From: Acidithiobacillus sulfuriphilus
GTDB lineage: Bacteria > Pseudomonadota > Gammaproteobacteria > Acidithiobacillales > Acidithiobacillaceae
Direction: 5' to 3'
Assembly (NCBI RefSeq): GCF_003721225.1
Contig: NZ_RIZI01000114.1
Location: forward strand, 1 to 12,394
DNA: 12,394 nt
The notes under the pieces were generated by a model. The model had not been told where the DNA came from. It ran no database searches and saw nothing but the letters and a program-made list of their open reading frames with translations. Of this stretch, positions 1,756 through 11,507 are shown in pieces. Position numbers and translations under genes: made by a program. Within the stretch, counting starts at the first letter, position 1. Each line of letters begins with the position of its first letter.

Positions 1756-2460
1756 TTACACGTCCAGTCCCGCGCCGTGGACTCGCAGCCATTCCTTGCG
1801 CTCGCCATAGGTGGGCATTACCTTGTCCACCTCATTCCAGAAGGCATCGGTGTGATCAAGATGATGGAAGTGGCAAAGCTCATGCACCACGATGTAGTCG
1901 ATGATGGTTTGCGGTGCCATCATGCACTTCCAGTGAAAGGCCAGGCTGCCGTTCGGCGAGCAGGAGGCCCAGCGATTTCCGAGTTCGCGGACGTTGATGT
2001 CGCGCGGAGTTACCCCGATCTTGGGCGCGTAGTAGTCCACACGCTGGCGGATGCGCTCGCTACCACGTGCGATATGGTAATTACGGAAGGCGGCTTTGGC
2101 TGCCTCGATTTCACCCCGGTCCGCCAGGTCGCGCCGCAGGCAGAAGCGCCCGTTCTTCAGCAGCAGAGGCTCTTCCTGATCGGCGACCAGCAGCAGGCGG
2201 TAAGACCGGCCCAGGTAAAGAAAGCCCTCGCCGTTGCGATACTCGCGCAGTACCCGCGTGGCGTTGAGGTCGCGCCATTCGGCGAGGTTTTTGTAAATCC
2301 AGTAGCGCTTGGCCTCGACCAAGTCCTCGATTCGCTCGTCGGGAATCGACTCGGGGGCGCGGACCAGCACGCGGCCATCGCGCTCGATGACGATATCCGC
2401 CGTGGCGCGGCGGCTGCGTATCACTTCGTAGCGAATGTCCTTGTTCCGGGTGGCGCTCAT
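1756..2460 (-). CDS. YgjP-type (COG1451/DUF45) zinc metallopeptidase linked to type I R-M
   Basis: This 234-residue protein ends in the HExxH-type zinc site VVHELCHFHHLDHTDAFW. H193 and H197 are likely ligands, E194 the catalytic base and H203 a likely third ligand. The block NRWASCSPNGSLAFHWK (162-178) just before it is typical of the YgjP-like (DUF45, COG1451) predicted metallopeptidases. No signal peptide is present, so it is presumably cytoplasmic. Its ATG overlaps the hsdR stop as ATGA (2457-2460), so it is translated as the last cistron of the hsdR unit. Relatives of this family are often found beside hsdR in type I loci, where their substrate is unknown. Processing or turnover of a restriction subunit is a reasonable but unproven guess. 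All zinc-site residues are intact. Confidence 0.9.
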   Translation of the reverse strand: MSATRNKDIRYEVIRSRRATADIVIERDGRVLVRAPESIPDERIEDLVEAKRYWIYKNLAEWRDLNATRVLREYRNGEGFLYLGRSYRLLLVADQEEPLLLKNGRFCLRRDLADRGEIEAAKAAFRNYHIARGSERIRQRVDYYAPKIGVTPRDINVRELGNRWASCSPNGSLAFHWKCMMAPQTIIDYIVVHELCHFHHLDHTDAFWNEVDKVMPTYGERKEWLRVHGAGLDV

Positions 2461-5400
2461 TTCGTCAGTTCCTCGTGCCGCTTTTCGGCCAGTTTGACGA
2501 TCTCCACCGCGATCCGTTCGTGCTTCGCGGTGAGCTGCGGGATGTTGGCGAGCAGGATTTCCGTGTCGATGTTGCCCCGCAGGTTTTTCACCTCGATGGG
2601 TTTTTTCCAGAAATCGATGATGTCGATGGTGCCCTGCAAAATCTCCACGATGCGCGCCATGAGCTTTTTCAGCGGCGCATGTGCATCGGGCGGCACGGCG
2701 TCGCCGCCGAAAGCGAGCTGCACCACGTAGTCGTAAAATGTGGTCGCCTCTTTGCTCAGGCCCTCAATGGCATCCGTGCGGCCTTCCATCGCCTCGTTCC
2801 GAATCTGCTCGTAACCCTCGGCCAACGCTTGCCAGTTGTTCTGGTGCTCCTGGATCAGTTTCTCCAGCTTCTCGCTCAGGCGTTTGTAGAAAGCCGGGTC
2901 TTCGTCGAAATGTACCGTGCAGTGCTTGCGGATGGCGTGTTCCATCTCGCTGGCCTTGGCCTCCGGATCGCCCTGGGCGTGCTTCTGCACGTTGGCGATG
3001 AAGTCGTCCGCCAGCAGTTCGATGGGCGGAATCCTGGGGTTGATCCCCAGATCGATGAGGTGCTCGTTGATCAGCGCCTTCACCTTCTCGCCCGCGTCCG
3101 CGATGTCGAGCGAGTCGTCCTTGTAGCGCTCCTTGACCATGCGCAGCAGGTAGCCGAAGCGCCGCGCCGGGCCGCGATACGGGTGCCCGGCCTGATTGGG
3201 CAGGATCAGGTTCAGGCTTTGCAGGAACTTTTTCAGATACACCTCGAAGTCCGCCCGGCGCTTGATGTCCTTCAATGCGCCCACCGCCGCGTGCACCACG
3301 GCGACTTCCGCCTCGGGCGTGGGCAGATCGTCCTTGACGAAGGCCTCGATCCCACCCACCCCGGCGGCGCGGAAGTGCTGCAACAGGCGCTGATAGCGTT
3401 CTTCCAGGATCGGCAGCTCGGTGAGCAGGCTTTTCAAGCCCTGCTGGATGTCCTGGGCGTCCTCCTGCGCGTAAATCGCCAGCGCCTGCGTCAAATGGTT
3501 CGCCAGGCCGATGTAATCCACGATGAAGCCGCGATGCTTGTTCTTCGCCACCCGGTTCACCCGCGCGATGGCCTGCAACAGGTTGTGCTCCTTGAGCCGC
3601 TTGTCGATGTACATCACCTGCTCCACCGGCGCATCGAAGCCGGTCAGCAGCATGTCGCACACGATCAGGAAGGCGATGCCGGTCAGGTCCCTGTCCGGGT
3701 CGTCGAAGTCGAAGGGCTTGCAGAAGTTCTCCACCGCGTTCCAGCGCTTGGCTTCCCTGCGCGCCTCGGTGATGACCGCCAGTTCGTTGGTGGCGTCGGA
3801 AGAAACCACCACCGCCGCCTTCAAGAAAGCAATGCGGCGAATCAGCTCGGTGTCTGGCTTCGGCTTCAGCCTCTCCCTATCCAGCCGCTCGGCCAGGGCT
3901 GCGCGAATCGACTTCTGGTAGCGGATCGCCGCCAGCTTGGAGTGGCATACCACCTGCGCCTTGAAACCATCCGGCAGGATGTTGTCGATGTAATGCGCCA
4001 CCAGATCGCGGGCAATGGCCGCGATACGTTTCTCCGCTTCGAGGATGTCGCCGCTCGCGCCGTACTTCTTCTTGATGGCGAACAGTTCCGCTTCGCTGCG
4101 CGTCTTGAACAGGTCTTCGAACCGGGTGTCGAAGCCGTGCTTGTCCTTCAGCGCCGTGTCGGCCGTGCGGCCTTCGTAGAGGATTTGCAGGGTCGCGCCG
4201 TCGTGCACCGCGTCCATCAGCTTGTAGGTATCGATGTATTCGCCGAAGCGCTTCACCGTGCGCCGGTTGCCGTGCTGCTCGGTGATGAGCGGCGTGCCGG
4301 TGAAGGCAATGCGCGTCGCGTTGGGAAACGCCTCGAAGAGGTTGTCGCCGAAGTCCGAACTTTGCGTGCGATGCGCCTCGTCGATCATCAGCAGAATGCG
4401 GTCGGATGGATTCACCACGCCGAAGGTCTGGCCGGACGGCGCCGCACGGTAACTCGCCAGCGCTTCCGCCACTTTCAACGGCAGCGCCTCGGCGCGCTCC
4501 ATGAACTTGTGCACCATCACCATGTTGATGTCGGAAGCGGAGGTGGCAAGGTGCTCGCGCAATTGCGCCGTGCTCTCGATCAGGTTCACCTTGCCGCCGA
4601 TCAGCTTGGCCGTGGCGGCGAGCTGATCCTCCAAATCCACACGGTCATTGACCAGCAGAATCTTGAAATCCGCCAGATCGCTCGACGCGCGCAGCATGCG
4701 CGCCACGAACACCATGGTCAGCGATTTGCCCGAGCCCTGGGTATGCCACACCACGCCCGAACGCTCCTCCATGGTCTTGCCCGTGCGCAGGCGCTCCGTG
4801 ATGCGGTGGGCGGCGCGGTATTGCTGGTAGCGGCTCACCACCTTCACCCGCTTGCCCGAATCCGTGTCCATGAACACCGTGCAGGTGCGCAGCACGTCCA
4901 GCAGCGTCGCGGGCGCGAGCAGCCCCTGGATCAGCCGCTCCTGTTCGCGCTCCACGCCCAGCGGCGGCGTGTAGGCTCGGTTACTCTCCGGCCAGATGTC
5001 CTTCCAGGCATAAAAATGCTCGTAGCCCGACGTCACGCTGCCGTAGGTGGCCTTCTCGCCGCAGGTGCAGATCAGCAGCAGGTTGGTGTGGAACAGCCGT
5101 GGCTCGCCTTCGCGCAGCCCGGCAGCCGCCGTGTCGGCGCGCCCGTTGCGATAGCGCAGCAGTTGCTCGAAGGCCGCGTGCATCGGGTTGGCCGTATTCG
5201 CGTCGCCGATCTTCGCCTCCACCACCACCAGCGGAATGCCGTTCACAAACAGCACGATATCGGGGATGACGCACTGCTTCACGCAGCCCGGCGTGTCGAT
5301 GCGGAACTGGTTGATGGCGTGGAAGACATTGCGCTCCGGGTGGGCGAAGTCGATCAGGCTAACCACCGGGTCGCTCTCGCCCGTCACCTCGTTGCGCTCC

Positions 5401-5711
5401 ACCTGCGCCTTGAGGAACAGCGCCTGCACCCCCTCGTTGGCTTCCAGCAGCGTGCGGTTCGGCTGGCGCAGAATCTGGTCGCGCAGATCGTCGAGCTGGC
5501 GGTCGGTCAGCCAGGCCGTGCCGTCGGCAGTACGGTTGATGGCGCGCACCGTCTCGCGGAACACCTCGGGCAGCAGCCACTCGCGAAAGCTCCCGCGCAG
5601 GCTCGCCGCCGGGTCGCTGGGGATGAATCCCTGCCCTTGGTCGACCACCGTCCAGCCCAGGGCGGCAAGCTGGTCGAGGAAGGGCTTTTCGACGTGGAGG
5701 TATTCAGACAT
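2457..5711 (-). CDS. hsdR: Type I restriction endonuclease, R (motor and nuclease) subunit
   Basis: HsdR joins the M2S core to translocate DNA with ATP and cut it at a distance. Numbered from the ATG at 5711 (1084 residues), the PD-(D/E)xK nuclease has D151, E165 and K167 (in VVVEAK), followed by the QxxxY motif at Q183-Y187. The SF2 motor shows Walker A TQGSGKS (324-330), DEAH (444-447), TGTP (471-474), LLTGFDAP (688-695) and motif VI QAIARVNR (713-720). The remainder is the helical C-terminal region that docks on the methylase. All expected motifs are intact and the length is normal. I prefer the ATG at 5711 because a GGA lies about eight bases upstream and SEYLHVEKPFLDQLA is the usual N-terminus. 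An in-frame ATG at 5720 has no visible ribosome site. It overlaps the AlbA_2 gene by 8 bp (17 bp from 5720) and the metallopeptidase gene by 4 bp. Confidence 0.96.
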   Translation of the reverse strand: MSEYLHVEKPFLDQLAALGWTVVDQGQGFIPSDPAASLRGSFREWLLPEVFRETVRAINRTADGTAWLTDRQLDDLRDQILRQPNRTLLEANEGVQALFLKAQVERNEVTGESDPVVSLIDFAHPERNVFHAINQFRIDTPGCVKQCVIPDIVLFVNGIPLVVVEAKIGDANTANPMHAAFEQLLRYRNGRADTAAAGLREGEPRLFHTNLLLICTCGEKATYGSVTSGYEHFYAWKDIWPESNRAYTPPLGVEREQERLIQGLLAPATLLDVLRTCTVFMDTDSGKRVKVVSRYQQYRAAHRITERLRTGKTMEERSGVVWHTQGSGKSLTMVFVARMLRASSDLADFKILLVNDRVDLEDQLAATAKLIGGKVNLIESTAQLREHLATSASDINMVMVHKFMERAEALPLKVAEALASYRAAPSGQTFGVVNPSDRILLMIDEAHRTQSSDFGDNLFEAFPNATRIAFTGTPLITEQHGNRRTVKRFGEYIDTYKLMDAVHDGATLQILYEGRTADTALKDKHGFDTRFEDLFKTRSEAELFAIKKKYGASGDILEAEKRIAAIARDLVAHYIDNILPDGFKAQVVCHSKLAAIRYQKSIRAALAERLDRERLKPKPDTELIRRIAFLKAAVVVSSDATNELAVITEARREAKRWNAVENFCKPFDFDDPDRDLTGIAFLIVCDMLLTGFDAPVEQVMYIDKRLKEHNLLQAIARVNRVAKNKHRGFIVDYIGLANHLTQALAIYAQEDAQDIQQGLKSLLTELPILEERYQRLLQHFRAAGVGGIEAFVKDDLPTPEAEVAVVHAAVGALKDIKRRADFEVYLKKFLQSLNLILPNQAGHPYRGPARRFGYLLRMVKERYKDDSLDIADAGEKVKALINEHLIDLGINPRIPPIELLADDFIANVQKHAQGDPEAKASEMEHAIRKHCTVHFDEDPAFYKRLSEKLEKLIQEHQNNWQALAEGYEQIRNEAMEGRTDAIEGLSKEATTFYDYVVQLAFGGDAVPPDAHAPLKKLMARIVEILQGTIDIIDFWKKPIEVKNLRGNIDTEILLANIPQLTAKHERIAVEIVKLAEKRHEELTK

Positions 5712-7260
5712 CGCTTCCATCCGGGCTGCGGGCTTGCTGTTCGAGCAATGCCTTTCCTGCTGACGTAAGCCGGTACTTCTGCTTGCTGCTTTTGGGCTTG
5801 TCGGGGATGGTCATCTCGACCAGCCCGGCATCCAACGCGGGTTGCAGGTAATCGTTGGCAAAGTGCATCCGATCCTTAAGCCCCAAGCCCTCCATGATTT
5901 CCGCTCTGGCCAGTTCACCACGGATGGCCGTAACCAACTTGTGGACTTGCGGGGTGACTTGCGGGGTGACTTGCGGGGTGACTTCCAGGGCACGCTCCTG
6001 AACTGCCCGCTCATGGACAGGCAAGCGAATCACGAAGGAGGTCCGATCCTTGTCGCTTTCGAACACCGGCGCGGGTGAACCGTTCGCCTTCATTGCGCGG
6101 AGAATCTTCGGAATCCCGGTAGAGCGCCCCTCCGTGAGCTCCAGCTCCTTGAGAAATTCACCAATCCGGCGGTTGCGGTAGCGGCGGCTGACCGCCTTGC
6201 CGGCACGCAGGTCTGCCATGCGGATGGAGCGATCCGGACCGGGAAAGCTCAGGACCACCAGTTCCTCGGCCGTGATGCGCACTTCCACCGGCTCCCGGAT
6301 CTCGTAGGAACGGTGATAGACCGCATTGACCACCGCCTCCTCGATCGCGGCATGGGGGAAATTCCAGAACCGCTCGGCCTCCGGTCGATCCGGGTGCTTG
6401 ATGACCGTCTCCTTGAGATAGTTGCGCTGGATGAAATCAATCGCGTCACGGGTAATCCGTGCCAGCGGGCCTTGAAAGATCTTTTCCTCGAAGCGATCAC
6501 CGCCCGCGCCTTCCGGAAACCACACCACATCGATCTGGGTGGCGGGAAAAAAGCGGTGCGGCGCTTCATTGAAGAACAACAAACCGACATTCTTCGGGAA
6601 AGGCGCTTCCGATGGACCGCCCACGATATTCATCTGCCGCCCGAGTGCTTCCATCGAAAGATTGCCGACGTCATGCGCCAGATCGCTGCCCACCTCGCGC
6701 AGAAAATCCTCGATCAAACGGGGCGAGAGATCGTCCAGCGAGGCGGATTGATTGTAGCGGTCGTCGAAAGGCACCGTTGCCGCCAAACCGAGCAACTCGC
6801 GCTCATTCTCACCCCTGGCCCTGACGGTGCTCGATTGCTTGCGAATATAGTAAGCCCATTCCTTGCCCTCTTTCGAGAGGCTGACCTTGGCCCGGTAAGG
6901 CCGGGTCTCGCCACCGGGCACCCAGAGAATCAGCACCGACTTCCCCTCCACCTCATACGAAGCTGAAAGCGGATGATAGTTGGGCTGCAAGGCATGATGG
7001 CCCAGGCCAAGGATCTCCTTCTGAATCGCATCCAGGCTATCGGGATCGATCCCCTTGGGAGGCAACACCGGCCGACCGTTCCGCTCTTCCACGCCAATGA
7101 TGATGTAGCCGCCGCCGAGGTTCTGGAAATCATTGGCAAAGGCGCACAGGGTGTGCAGCACACTCTCGGGGTTCCATCCCGCCTTGTATTCGATGCGCTC
7201 GCCTTCCACCGTGCGCTGGCGCAGCAGGTCGGTTAGGTTGATGGGGAGTTTACTGGTCAT
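5704..7260 (-). CDS. AlbA_2 (Schlafen-like) ATP-binding protein with GHKL-like and winged-helix regions
   Basis: This 518-residue protein starts with an AlbA_2/Schlafen-like domain (about 10-155). Its signatures are ERIEYK (21-26), FANDFQN (41-47) and the glycine run GGGYIIIGVEERNG (49-62). A central region, about 300-415, resembles the HATPase_c_4 (GHKL-like) domain of COG2865 proteins: EEAVVNAVYHRSY (307-319), with N312 as the N-box asparagine, then LTEGRSTGIPKI (375-386). A low-complexity linker of three VTPQ units (427-438) leads to a C-terminal winged-helix-like segment (about 440-510). Proteins of this layout are often annotated as RecG-like helicases or transcriptional regulators, but no helicase motifs are visible. 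The gene sits between the winged-helix regulator (ATGA overlap) and hsdR (8-bp overlap), so it should be made with HsdR. A role in modulating restriction is inference. Confidence 0.88.
   Translation of the reverse strand: MTSKLPINLTDLLRQRTVEGERIEYKAGWNPESVLHTLCAFANDFQNLGGGYIIIGVEERNGRPVLPPKGIDPDSLDAIQKEILGLGHHALQPNYHPLSASYEVEGKSVLILWVPGGETRPYRAKVSLSKEGKEWAYYIRKQSSTVRARGENERELLGLAATVPFDDRYNQSASLDDLSPRLIEDFLREVGSDLAHDVGNLSMEALGRQMNIVGGPSEAPFPKNVGLLFFNEAPHRFFPATQIDVVWFPEGAGGDRFEEKIFQGPLARITRDAIDFIQRNYLKETVIKHPDRPEAERFWNFPHAAIEEAVVNAVYHRSYEIREPVEVRITAEELVVLSFPGPDRSIRMADLRAGKAVSRRYRNRRIGEFLKELELTEGRSTGIPKILRAMKANGSPAPVFESDKDRTSFVIRLPVHERAVQERALEVTPQVTPQVTPQVHKLVTAIRGELARAEIMEGLGLKDRMHFANDYLQPALDAGLVEMTIPDKPKSSKQKYRLTSAGKALLEQQARSPDGSDV
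5947..5982 (-). repeat. Three perfect 12-bp tandem repeats encoding VTPQ
   Basis: The unit TTGCGGGGTGAC (plus strand) occurs three times without a mismatch at 5947-5958, 5959-5970 and 5971-5982. On the coding strand each unit reads Val-Thr-Pro-Gln. Because 12 is a multiple of three, gain or loss of a unit would change the linker length in the AlbA_2 protein without shifting the frame. Identity at the DNA level, third positions included, points to recent slippage expansion. Confidence 0.95.
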
Positions 7261-7649
7261 GGGGAGGTTCCGTTTTCGCGCGCCGCGCGCAACACTTCCG
7301 CCAGCCCCAGGGTCTTGGTCACGATGCCGCGCAACTCGTCGAAAATCGGGGCCGCCGGGTTGGCCTGGTAATGTTTCTGACTGCCGATACGGGTGACCGT
7401 CACCAGCCCGCTCTCGGCCAGCCGCCGAAGCTCGCGCTGCACCGCGCCCGACCCGGCGCCGACCAGGCCGATCAGTTCGTTGGTAAAGAAACTGCGCCCC
7501 GGGTGGCCAAACAGCAACGCCAGCACGCGCTGCTGCGTCGCCGAAAACAGCGCATCGGCGAGACCAGTTCGCGCCGGAGCGGATGTGCGCGTCGCGGCGG
7601 CATCCGGCTTGAGCGGCTTGGCTGTGTTCTTCATACCCATTTCGGGCAT
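7257..7649 (-). CDS. Small winged-helix (ArsR/MarR-like) transcriptional regulator
   Basis: From the ATG at 7649 this is a 130-residue protein. It has a variable N-terminal tail and a winged-helix domain at about 32-97: TQQRVLALLFGHPG, then a recognition-helix stretch SGAVQRELRRLAESGLV, then the wing VTRIGSQKHYQAN. This wHTH type often heads a nucleotidyltransferase (MNT) domain in one protein; here the chain stops soon after the wHTH, so it may only bind DNA. Its stop overlaps the next ATG (ATGA, 7257-7260), implying translational coupling. I chose 7649 because AAGGG lies seven bases upstream. ATGs at 7670, 7640 and 7634 are in frame, and a start at 7640 or 7634 would fit better if the predicted promoter is real. 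Two palindromes at the gene start suggest autoregulation. Confidence 0.8.
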   Translation of the reverse strand: MPEMGMKNTAKPLKPDAAATRTSAPARTGLADALFSATQQRVLALLFGHPGRSFFTNELIGLVGAGSGAVQRELRRLAESGLVTVTRIGSQKHYQANPAAPIFDELRGIVTKTLGLAEVLRAARENGTSP

Positions 7650-7670
7650 GTTAATGCCCTTTTTGGGCAT
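7633..7670 (-). promoter_or_regulatory. Tandem palindromic operators ATGCCC-N5-GGGYAT
   Basis: On the minus strand, ATGCCC-AAAAA-GGGCAT (7670-7654) is a perfect 6-5-6 palindrome. A second copy, ATGCCC-GAAAT-GGGTAT (7649-7633), pairs at five of six positions. The two start 21 bp apart, two helical turns, so dimers bound to them would lie on the same DNA face. They overlap the start of the winged-helix gene and the AAGGG ribosome site, the usual place for an autoregulatory site. Binding by the adjacent wHTH protein is inferred. Confidence 0.65.
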
Positions 7671-7677
7671 AAGGCAA
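7648..7677 (-). promoter_or_regulatory. Candidate sigma-70 promoter for the regulator-AlbA_2-hsdR-peptidase unit
   Basis: On the minus strand a TTGCCT (7677-7672, 4/6 to TTGACA) and a TAACAT (7653-7648, 4/6 to TATAAT) are separated by 18 bp. The spacer contains exactly the perfect palindrome at 7654-7670. Transcription would begin near 7641, giving an almost leaderless mRNA starting at the ATG at 7640 or 7634. The match is modest and depends on the operator context for its plausibility. Confidence 0.35.
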
Positions 7678-7711: not shown

Positions 7712-7741
7712 GTAGGTCGGGTTAGCGCAGCGTAACCCGAC
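7712..7741 (+). repeat. REP hairpin, left flank of RAYT
   Basis: A GTAG tetranucleotide (7712-7715) is followed directly by a hairpin with 9-bp arms GTCGGGTTA and TAACCCGAC and an 8-nt loop (7716-7741). A GTAG at the hairpin foot is the known recognition signature of RAYT-linked REPs such as those of E. coli. This copy lies 12 bp past the RAYT stop codon. Confidence 0.9.
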
Positions 7742-7753
7742 AATCCACCCACG

Positions 7754-8290
7754 TCATTCATGCCCCACCCCTTTGAAATCCATCGATCCCTGTCCCCAAT
7801 CCGCCGGATACGCCCCGTCTTTAACATACCGGCGGAAACTGGAGTACGGCCATTCCATCGCCGACGACGCATACCCATGCTTCACTGGATTGAAATGGAT
7901 GTAATCGGCATGCCGGGCGAAGTCCGTTTCATCCCTCAACGCGTGCTCCCAATACCGGTGCTGCCATATGGCCTGTTGTCGCTTCGTCACCCGCGCGCGG
8001 TTCGGCACCGCACGCAATGCCGGGTCGCAATGTTTGGTGAACCACGTCTTGATCAGGCGCCAGCGTGTCGCGAAGTCTGCATCGCCCGGCGACAGGCTCC
8101 ATATGCAGTGCAGGTGATCGGGCAGAACCACCATCGCATCCAATGCGAATGGGTGCGCCGACCGTACCACACGGAAGGCCATGCGCAGAATGTCCACCGC
8201 CTCTGCCGAGGCCAACAGCGGTCGCCGTTGCTCCGTCACCAAGGTGAAAAAGAACGACCCCCCGGGAATGAATGCGCGTCGATAGTTCAT
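7754..8290 (-). CDS. REP-associated tyrosine transposase (RAYT, Y1/HUH family)
   Basis: This protein of about 178 residues belongs to the Y1 transposase family that cuts and rejoins single-stranded REP DNA through a 5'-phosphotyrosine. From the ATG at 8290, the HUH metal site is LPDHLHCIW (H59 and H61). The likely catalytic Tyr is Y130 in DYIHFNPVKHGY, after the RAYT-typical stretch WQHRYWEHALRDETDF. I start at the ATG at 8290 (NYRRAFIPGG, the usual RAYT N-terminus). A TTG two codons upstream at 8296 is the only extension and lies almost against a REP hairpin. No strong ribosome site is seen. All key residues are intact, so it may be active. REP hairpins with GTAG feet flank it on both sides, and two more copies lie in hsdM. 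It has no role in restriction and is an insertion into the operon. Confidence 0.93.
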   Translation of the reverse strand: MNYRRAFIPGGSFFFTLVTEQRRPLLASAEAVDILRMAFRVVRSAHPFALDAMVVLPDHLHCIWSLSPGDADFATRWRLIKTWFTKHCDPALRAVPNRARVTKRQQAIWQHRYWEHALRDETDFARHADYIHFNPVKHGYASSAMEWPYSSFRRYVKDGAYPADWGQGSMDFKGVGHE

Positions 8291-8301
8291 TGCCAATCCA
8301 T

Positions 8302-8331
8302 GTCGGGTTACGCTGCGCTAACCCGACCTAC
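8302..8331 (-). repeat. REP hairpin, right flank of RAYT (inverted)
   Basis: This is the exact reverse complement of the copy at 7712-7741, with its GTAG foot on the minus strand at 8331-8328. It sits just before the transposase start, so a hairpin would form close to the ribosome entry site of the RAYT mRNA and could limit its translation. Confidence 0.9.
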
Positions 8332-8355: not shown

Positions 8356-8385
8356 GTAGGTCGGGTTAGCGTAGCATAACCCGAC
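8356..8385 (+). repeat. REP hairpin, second copy between hsdS and RAYT
   Basis: It has the same GTAG foot and 9-bp arms as the left-flank copy, with two substitutions confined to the loop region (GTAGCA in place of GCAGCG). It ends 14 bp beyond the hsdS stop codon. In the minus-strand transcript its hairpin follows hsdS and could stabilise the hsdMS message or reduce read-through into the downstream unit. Confidence 0.88.
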
Positions 8386-10627: not shown

Positions 10628-10657
10628 GTAGGTCGGGTTAGCGCAGCGTAACCCGAC
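10628..10657 (+). repeat. REP hairpin within hsdM
   Basis: This is base-for-base the same as the RAYT-flanking copy at 7712-7741, including the GTAG foot (10628-10631). On the hsdM coding strand it is translated as SGYAALTRPT without a stop. Its identity with the RAYT-linked copies indicates recent spread or ongoing homogenisation. Confidence 0.92.
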
Positions 10658-10740: not shown

Positions 10741-11507
10741 ATTTTTATTGGGGCGCGGCACGAAGCAGCGCTCGCGCAGGCCGGGGTAGTTGCGCCAGTA
10801 GCGTGCGAGGGCGTCGATTTCCGTCACGGGCACGCCGCCGTGCAGGTGGGCGCGCACGTCGTGGGGTTCTGGCGGCGGGGCGTTGTCGACGTAGCGGCGG
10901 ATGTTGCAGTTGTAGTCTTCGGCGGCGATTTCTTCCACCGGCACGCGGCGGGCGTAGGCCGGTACGTCCGCTCCACCCTGGGCGAGGCTGCGGTAGACGT
11001 GGACGATCTTGGCGATGTCTTCCGGGCGCAGGAAGTTTTGCGCCTTGCCTTCGCGGTATTCGCGGTCGGCGTTGATGAAGAGGATGTGCTTGCGGGTGGC
11101 GGCGTCCTTCTTGTTCATCACCAGCACGCAGGCGGGGATGCCGGTGCCGTAGAACAGCCCGGCGGGCAGGCCGATCACCGCCTCCAGCCAGCCGCGTTCG
11201 ATGAAGTGCTTGCGCGCTTCCTTCTCCTCGCCGCCGCGGAACAGCACGCCGTGGGGCATGACGGTGCCATCTTGCCGTCGGCCTTGAGCACGGCGAGCAT
11301 GTGCTGCACGAACATGAGGTCGGCCTTCTTGCCCTTCTCCGGCATCCATACGGCGAAGCGGCCGGGGTATTCGATGTCCTTCTTGATGTAGTTCTGGCTG
11401 AAGGGCGGATTGGCGAGCACGCGGTCGTAACGTTTCAGTTCGTTACTTTCGGCTTTGTGCTGCGGGCGGCGCAGGGTGTCCTCCTGGCGGATGTCGGCGT
11501 GGGCAAT

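Follow-up and report, generated by a model that had tools for sequence, protein, structure and literature searches.

A small winged helix-turn-helix (wHTH) protein encoded in a restriction-modification (R-M) locus of Acidithiobacillus sulfuriphilus very probably lowers the expression of its own gene and of a downstream restriction gene through twin promoter sites, and sequence comparison indicates that the same twin-site switch recurs before other bacterial anti-virus gene sets. The stretch of DNA analyzed, hereafter the window, comprises 12,394 nucleotides (positions 1 to 12,394 of contig NZ_RIZI01000114.1). We consider it quite probable that a pair of palindromes in the window serves the adjacent wHTH protein as its operator, and that dimers of this protein would cooperatively autorepress a leaderless polycistron encoding the wHTH protein, a Schlafen/AlbA-type protein, HsdR, and YgjP. 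Within bacterial immunity, little is known about how defence operons are quieted and released. With this analysis, a broad wHTH family gains a predicted binding site and a table of recognition helices and half-sites, the candidate system PDC-M05 gains a predicted control circuit, and the promoter signature becomes a possible way to locate defence operons.

Tandem palindromes at the head of the wHTH gene

The original prediction had placed two palindromes in a register of two helical turns at the head of the unit, and both were found there. Positions 7654-7670 hold a perfect ATGCCC-N5-GGGCAT, and the minus strand at positions 7633-7649 reads ATGCCC-N5-GGGTAT, which departs from perfect by a single arm letter; the two centres are 21 bp apart. 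On that strand TTGCCT (7677-7672), ATGCCCAAAAAGGGCAT (7670-7654), TAACAT (7653-7648), and ATGCCCGAAATGGGTAT (7649-7633) follow one another and head the wHTH gene. The features of the region and of the genes behind it are given below, with the 110 loci defined in the next section.

7712..7741, no strand assigned: REP-like palindrome, 5' of the -35 by about 35 bp, flanking a REP-associated transposase gene on its near side
7672..7677, minus strand: -35-like TTGCCT, read from the sequence; TTG lies 6-9 bp 5' of site 1 in 83 of 110 loci
7654..7670, minus strand: putative operator 1, ATGCCCAAAAAGGGCAT, filling the -35/-10 spacer; pair conserved in relatives
7648..7653, minus strand: -10-like TAACAT between the putative operators; identical hexamer in 16 of 110 loci
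7639..7642, minus strand: predicted transcription start, 6-8 nt past the -10, placed by geometry
7638..7640, minus strand: predicted true ATG, leaderless, centring operator 2; 82 of 110 loci have ATG at this place
7633..7649, minus strand: putative operator 2, ATGCCCGAAATGGGTAT, covering the predicted transcription start and start codon
7257..7640, minus strand: standalone wHTH regulator, 127 aa from 7640, PDC-M05A-like by profile matches, lacking the nucleotidyltransferase domain
5704..7260, minus strand: SLFN_AlbA_2/HATPase_c_4/Fic-like_C protein; its start overlaps the wHTH stop by 4 nt (ATGA)
2457..5720, minus strand: HsdR, type I restriction subunit; 17-nt overlap with the SLFN gene
1756..2460, minus strand: YgjP-like metallopeptidase; 4-nt overlap with the hsdR stop

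A single palindrome was rejected as evidence owing to its chance-level frequency in the window and the genome: six matches with at most two mismatches occurred in the window against 2.7 expected, and exact single sites had two further copies in the 2.81-Mb genome. The strict 36-bp tandem pattern has a single copy in that genome, which is one of 8 among 369 class genomes to contain it, while a reversed-pattern control gave 0 of 369. All seven non-own pairs lay on or just 5' of the start of a wHTH-nucleotidyltransferase frame. The tandem palindromes are real and not a product of chance. Since 55 of the 369 class genomes encode the protein or a relative (E ≤ 1e-10), the strict pattern catches only part of the family.

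Conservation of the pair across relatives

Relatives were collected by protein similarity. One set consisted of 72 genome loci; further loci came from matches in 12 of 96 relatives, from 30 of 117 genomes in the family to which a Thiobacillus strain belongs, from the matches in 55 of 369 class genomes (loci retained for the best matches only), and from the strict 36-bp pattern, through which seven loci were added. Excluded from the set were the copies belonging to the window itself (L001-L005, L094), identical duplicates, and L034 and L111, which have no upstream DNA, their contigs stopping within the gene. The final set contained 117 distinct loci, window included, in which near-identical Janthinobacterium loci enter the counts several times and L072 sits at a contig end.

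Each region was scored for a TRCCC-N5-GGGYA pair (maximum 20). At 21 bp the score was at least 16 in 94 of the 117 loci and reached 20 in 43, and the conservation at homologous loci on which the original prediction depended is thus present. Among the first 85 loci, for which spacings of 15-30 bp were searched, the best spacing was 21 bp with a score of at least 15 in 76. Scores of at least 16 were reached by 75 of these 85 loci versus 1 of 85 letter-shuffled regions (one shuffle per locus), and scores of at least 15 by 13 of the 85 shuffled regions. Ten of the 23 loci scoring below 16 have any-letter palindromes (at least 8 of 10 pairs) at 21 bp, compared with 0.6 in shuffles and with at most six loci at any other spacing; this letter-free scan is a weak tool, which reached 9 of 10 pairs in 12 of 78 canonical loci at 21 bp, in 6 at 18 bp, and in 5 at 30 bp. 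Pairs with other letters at 21 bp include TGCTA-N5-TAGCA in L118 and TTCAT-N5-RTGAA in L017. In total a pair was counted in 110 of the 117 loci, namely the 94 and 16 with other letters, a count that includes seven placed by eye and the doubtful L068 (a single palindrome on inspection); no pair was found in the remaining seven.

In the divergent subfamilies (L117-L121, L013, L017, L158), the spacing is again 21 bp, but the half-sites are TGCTA or TTCAT. Five of 13 plasmid matches were scored at 21 bp, giving 18, 16, 15, 14, and 12, of which 15 and 14 are within the shuffle range. No relative was found in the phage and viral collections.

That the repeat merely reflects coding, as a duplicated N-terminal peptide (MPKKGIN-MPEMGM), is hardly credible. 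The frame is indeed open across both sites in the window and in many of its closest relatives, but in 24 of 110 loci the gene's frame is not in register with the centre of site 2, an in-frame stop lies within 30 bp 5' of that centre in 22 of 110, and the 21-bp pair is kept with different letters in other subfamilies.

Predicted promoter and start codon

As originally proposed, the first palindrome fills the spacer of a -35/-10 pair (TTGCCT, 18-nt spacer, TAACAT). This promoter is weak, with 8 of 12 consensus letters by manual count, and a sigma-70 scan at a threshold of 9/12 listed none for it; the promoter claims therefore rest on comparison between loci. Between the sites, T occupies position 1 of the hexamer in 83 of the 110 loci, A position 2 in 96, and T position 6 in 102; TTG was absent from the examined range in 19.

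In 77 of the 110 loci the ATG centring site 2 stands as an unblocked, in-frame start. Another codon occupies the centre in 28 loci (TTG in 16), several of which have a start codon further down. Transcription usually begins 6-8 nt from the -10, a distance that would place its start at the ATG, and from a -35 before site 1, a -10 between the sites, and an ATG centring site 2 we infer a leaderless mRNA. The layout suggests that this mRNA starts at 7640 and not at 7670, where the original prediction had put the gene start; the database copy of the protein begins at 7649. A ribosome site had also been proposed under the first palindrome. Because the start codon is conserved in the second palindrome and a Shine-Dalgarno-like word occurs in the 16 bases 5' of it in just 1 of 110 loci, that proposal is not supported.

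Action of the palindromes at the RNA level, as hairpins of an attenuator or a translation block, is highly improbable. Both can fold in RNA, and a program scan places a terminator-like site on the opposite strand at 7644-7659. However, site 1, between the -35 and the -10, would not be transcribed from the proposed promoter, and the fixed helical phasing and the tracking of the recognition helix described below suit protein-DNA binding.

The wHTH protein as the likely binder

Half-site letters vary with the recognition helix of the adjacent protein, as listed below; the Fisher test on this association takes half-sites as independent, and the groups were drawn after looking.

GAVQREL: TACCC or TGCCC in 202 of 260 half-sites
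GTIRREL: GACCC in 6 of 12 half-sites
GTVSREL: TCCCC in 7 of 12 half-sites
ASLQREL: TGCTA in 12 of 20 half-sites
ATIKREL: TTCAT or TTCAC in 11 of 12 half-sites
Exception, one GTISREL locus: TACCC in 3 of 4 half-sites

Paired changes were also seen within the arms. Positions 1 and 13 are complementary in 69 of 110 loci at one site (46 expected, shuffle maximum 60) and in 55 of 110 at the other (39 expected, shuffle maximum 52), exceeding all 2000 shuffles at both sites; shared ancestry confounds this covariation as well as the helix/half-site agreement. Complementarity of the outer pair 0/14 and the inner pairs 5/9 and 6/8 was not above shuffles in the 110 loci. Together, arm covariation, the helix link, and fixed spacing point to one wHTH dimer per palindrome, and the helix-linked letters make the adjacent wHTH protein itself the likely binder.

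Structure prediction gave a wHTH fold, with confidence over residues 41-120 (mean pLDDT 71.6, pTM 0.58). The model is ArsR/MarR-like, with helix 74-86 as the recognition helix, which contains VQRE, and a two-strand wing. Its best PDB match, the sole one at E ≤ 0.001, is an ArsR-type repressor. A family-profile sequence search of the PDB gave nothing at E ≤ 0.1, and the ArsR/SmtB metalloregulator profile scored 21.3 bits, below its curated cut-off of 55.

Binding by another host regulator is very unlikely. Fold and motif alone fall short of proving the wHTH/site pairing, but the strict pair occurs in the 369 class genomes only at such wHTH genes, and its letters track the recognition helix. Where the original prediction saw cooperative autorepression by the wHTH protein, a conserved tandem putative operator overlapping the promoter was found; binding, cooperativity, and repression we infer from it.

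Organization of the R-M locus

As had been noted, the unit behind the putative operator contains hsdR and lacks hsdM and hsdS: wHTH, SLFN, hsdR, and ygjP follow one another with overlaps of 4, 17, and 4 nt, and transcription would run through hsdR. Upstream of the regulator, a REP-associated transposase gene (7754-8296) flanked by REP-like palindromes separates it from hsdS, and beyond hsdS lies a split hsdM. The latter occupies two overlapping frames, 12278-11175 and 11349-9679 (overlap 11175-11349), which match the earlier and the later portion of the N6_Mtase profile, respectively. The break could be a real frameshift or possibly an assembly error, and it makes methylation in the window uncertain.

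Four REP-like palindromes (27 nt, three exact) are located at 10631-10657, 7715-7741, 8302-8328, and 8359-8385; two bracket the transposase gene and one is inside an hsdM frame. The Schlafen/AlbA-type protein (5704-7260) matches the PADLOC pAgo profile over residues 32-421 (4.7e-19), hinting at a module common to this protein and some Argonaute-type proteins.

The split hsdM, the REP-like copy within it, and the transposase gene between hsdS and the regulator would also fit a decaying locus, whose operator is ancestral and whose R-M system is dead in this strain. We regard this as improbable: the wHTH, Schlafen, hsdR, and ygjP frames are all open and overlapping, and the hsdM break could be an assembly error.

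The operator also heads a wHTH-NTase gene, an M05B-like gene, and hsdR in L021 and L026. In L031 (3517-3882), what appears by visual inspection to be a remnant, an hsdR start joined to a ygjP end, lies behind the operator and a wHTH-NTase/M05B-like pair. In L026 (1836-3454), two more genes precede the Schlafen gene in the hsdS-hsdR slot, one RelA/SpoT-like and one with no Pfam match. Ten relatives of the window hsdR were compared (42-72% identical; 10 of 13 non-own places other than L021's genome). All ten have a YgjP-like frame behind hsdR, and eight have hsdM and hsdS 5' of it; L176 and L183 have nothing in the hsdS-hsdR slot, which in other relatives is filled or longer. No operator pair scoring at least 18 was found in these ten, as far as the contigs reach, and the operator was rejected as a fixed part of this R-M subfamily. 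Present in the window, L021, L026, and L031 but in 0 of 10 hsdR relatives, it is a repeated accessory of the subfamily and not a rule. A wider Schlafen-wHTH pairing was rejected too, the Schlafen homologues of L194 and L195 having no wHTH gene in the flank covered. A phmmer match (E ≤ 1e-4) to the window HsdM, HsdS, or HsdR occurred in the flank of 12 of 72 loci, as a raw count.

From the position of hsdR, the original prediction had proposed that nuclease could be held back while methylation proceeds. The hsdR-side layout does recur in L021 and L026, but other loci place hsdM (L041, L042) or a whole hsdR-hsdM-hsdS set (L058) behind the promoter, which makes this reading possible, not general. 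A rival reading is a timer like that of C proteins, in which the wHTH protein would activate and then repress its own promoter, restriction lagging methylation in a new cell. We find such a timer conceivable but doubtful. It would account for the window, L021, and L026, where hsdR follows the operator without hsdM and hsdS, and for the likely hsdR/ygjP remnant in L031, and C.Csp231I is likewise described with twin boxes and an apparently leaderless mRNA (PMC4824078). However, site 1 in the -35/-10 spacer would be a position for repression rather than activation, like units lead hsdM or the full hsd set at the loci just named, and the window hsdM is frame-split.

Standalone wHTH regulators and kinship with PDC-M05

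The window wHTH protein matches PDC-M05A profiles (best E 4e-40, residues 35-130), with the match ending at profile position 99 of 201. No match to the C-terminal nucleotidyltransferase domain and no M05B-like partner frame were found in the window, the next gene being SLFN_AlbA_2. A fused relative matches PDC-M05A profiles over both domains (1e-78), and in L021 the gene next to the fused wHTH-NTase matches PDC-M05B (3e-67). A fused-length wHTH frame was present in 103 of 112 scored rows, and phmmer finds nucleotidyltransferase in most of the wHTH frames examined. In L050 (469-2820), a wHTH-NTase-like sequence is fused in frame to a Hen1-type RNA-repair methyltransferase, with a pair scoring 20 at its start.

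Nine standalone forms had a readable neighbourhood; L081 was excluded, as its nucleotidyltransferase frame overlaps out of phase. The next genes and their distances in nt are as follows.

Window: Schlafen-hsdR, -4
L041, L042: hsdM, +8 and -4
L058: EcoAI-type hsdR, +13, then hsdM and hsdS
L076: DrmD-like and DrmMI-like, +28
L073: DruE-like helicase, +4, then DpdE/DrmD-like
L059: gene product lacking any Pfam match, -4
L027: Xre/RES pair, up to about +100
L189: next large frame in opposite orientation; no clear operator pair

DNA-targeting defence genes, assigned by profile, lie behind six of the nine, and the coupling to the next gene is -4 to +28 nt in seven. By these matches, the operons led by standalone forms include type I R-M, DISARM-like, and other helicase operons. 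In a tree of 114 wHTH domains, with few columns and many forks open, the standalone state (9 rows, L189 excluded) required seven changes, three of them forced by well-supported branches.

A broader proposal is tentative, and we hold it with somewhat more doubt than confidence. A sensor-less wHTH family may have become detached several times from PDC-M05 modules and come to lead unrelated operons of DNA-targeting defence, together with a compact promoter (-35, site 1, -10, site 2, start, and AUG in about 45 bp) and a readable helix/half-site code. Since the operator letters are common to standalone and fused forms, resident and incoming copies should cross-repress, which would wire the defence systems of one cell together.

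Proposed mechanism

In the autorepression that we favour, one wHTH dimer would occupy each TRCCC-N5-GGGYA site, and two dimers would sit adjacent on the same face of the helix, two turns apart. Once bound, they would mask the spacer, the -10, the start site, and the start codon of their own promoter. A leaderless transcript would begin at or beside the ATG at 7640 and extend through the wHTH gene, the Schlafen/AlbA-type gene, hsdR, and ygjP, and cooperative autorepression would hold the regulator and the restriction subunit at a low, steady level. As the wHTH protein is without a sensor domain, possible routes of release are dilution, titration, turnover, or a partner. Expression of the unit would increase upon dilution, titration, or loss of the repressor, as in a new host cell or during phage infection.

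Comparison with known regulators and defence systems

Controllers of defence operons already known are the C proteins, BrxR/CapW, CapK/CapS, and RptR, and AbiEi is a separate family. In the open-licence literature searched we found no earlier description of this wHTH family, of its operator, of standalone PDC-M05A-type regulators, or of their detachment from PDC-M05.

The window shares with C proteins twin palindromic boxes in its own putative promoter. C.Csp231I is described as having twin inverted repeats with 5-bp arms and a 5-bp gap in its own promoter, a restriction gene downstream, and an apparently leaderless transcript (PMC4824078); the geometry in the window would fit such a transcript. 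In Mycoplasma gallisepticum, a member of the C family upstream of a type I hsd locus is described as seeming to repress all of it (PMC12707154). However, C proteins have a cI/Xre-like HTH, whereas the window protein is predicted to be an ArsR/MarR-like wHTH with a two-strand wing, and its putative site 1 sits in the promoter spacer. Compared by fold and anatomy, the C-protein logic of the original prediction appears to suit the anatomy (twin boxes with 5-bp arms, apparently leaderless) better than the fold or the gene order.

RptR is described as a small single-domain autorepressor from type I islands with a metallopeptidase gene and an hsdS-hsdR slot that takes up other systems (PMC12255303); the hsdR relatives here show this slot too. 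That report gives it as a 79-aa all-helical protein with TAGCTA repeats and a promoter heading the whole island, whereas the window protein has a two-strand wing in the model, sites of the form TRCCC-N5-GGGYA, and a putative promoter before the hsdR part only. BrxR/CapW (WYL) and CapK/CapS are likewise described as wHTH repressors beside diverse defence operons (PMC9122601, PMC13373217). A WYL or STAS domain is part of these proteins, whereas the window protein (127-137 aa) is a wHTH with short ends only, in which no Pfam match to WYL or STAS was found. Palindrome autoregulation by a member of a nucleotidyltransferase-type pair has been described for the AbiEi antitoxin (PMC7319586) and for SO_3165 of the HEPN/MNT pair SO_3165-3166, the latter being reported, in contrast to the window protein, with no predicted DNA-binding domain and with two dissimilar palindromes (PMC4621449).

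Profile matches also tie the window protein to PDC-M05, a PADLOC candidate system (M05A wHTH-nucleotidyltransferase and M05B) described in print as a nucleotidyltransferase and a HEPN protein whose antiviral role is unconfirmed (PMC12988326). The window differs from it in having neither the nucleotidyltransferase domain nor an M05B-like partner, but the operator type is common to fused and standalone forms. PDC-M05A is listed among the defence genes raised in a phage-infected Burkholderia strain (PMC12584637), and by analogy such a rise would fit a releasable promoter.
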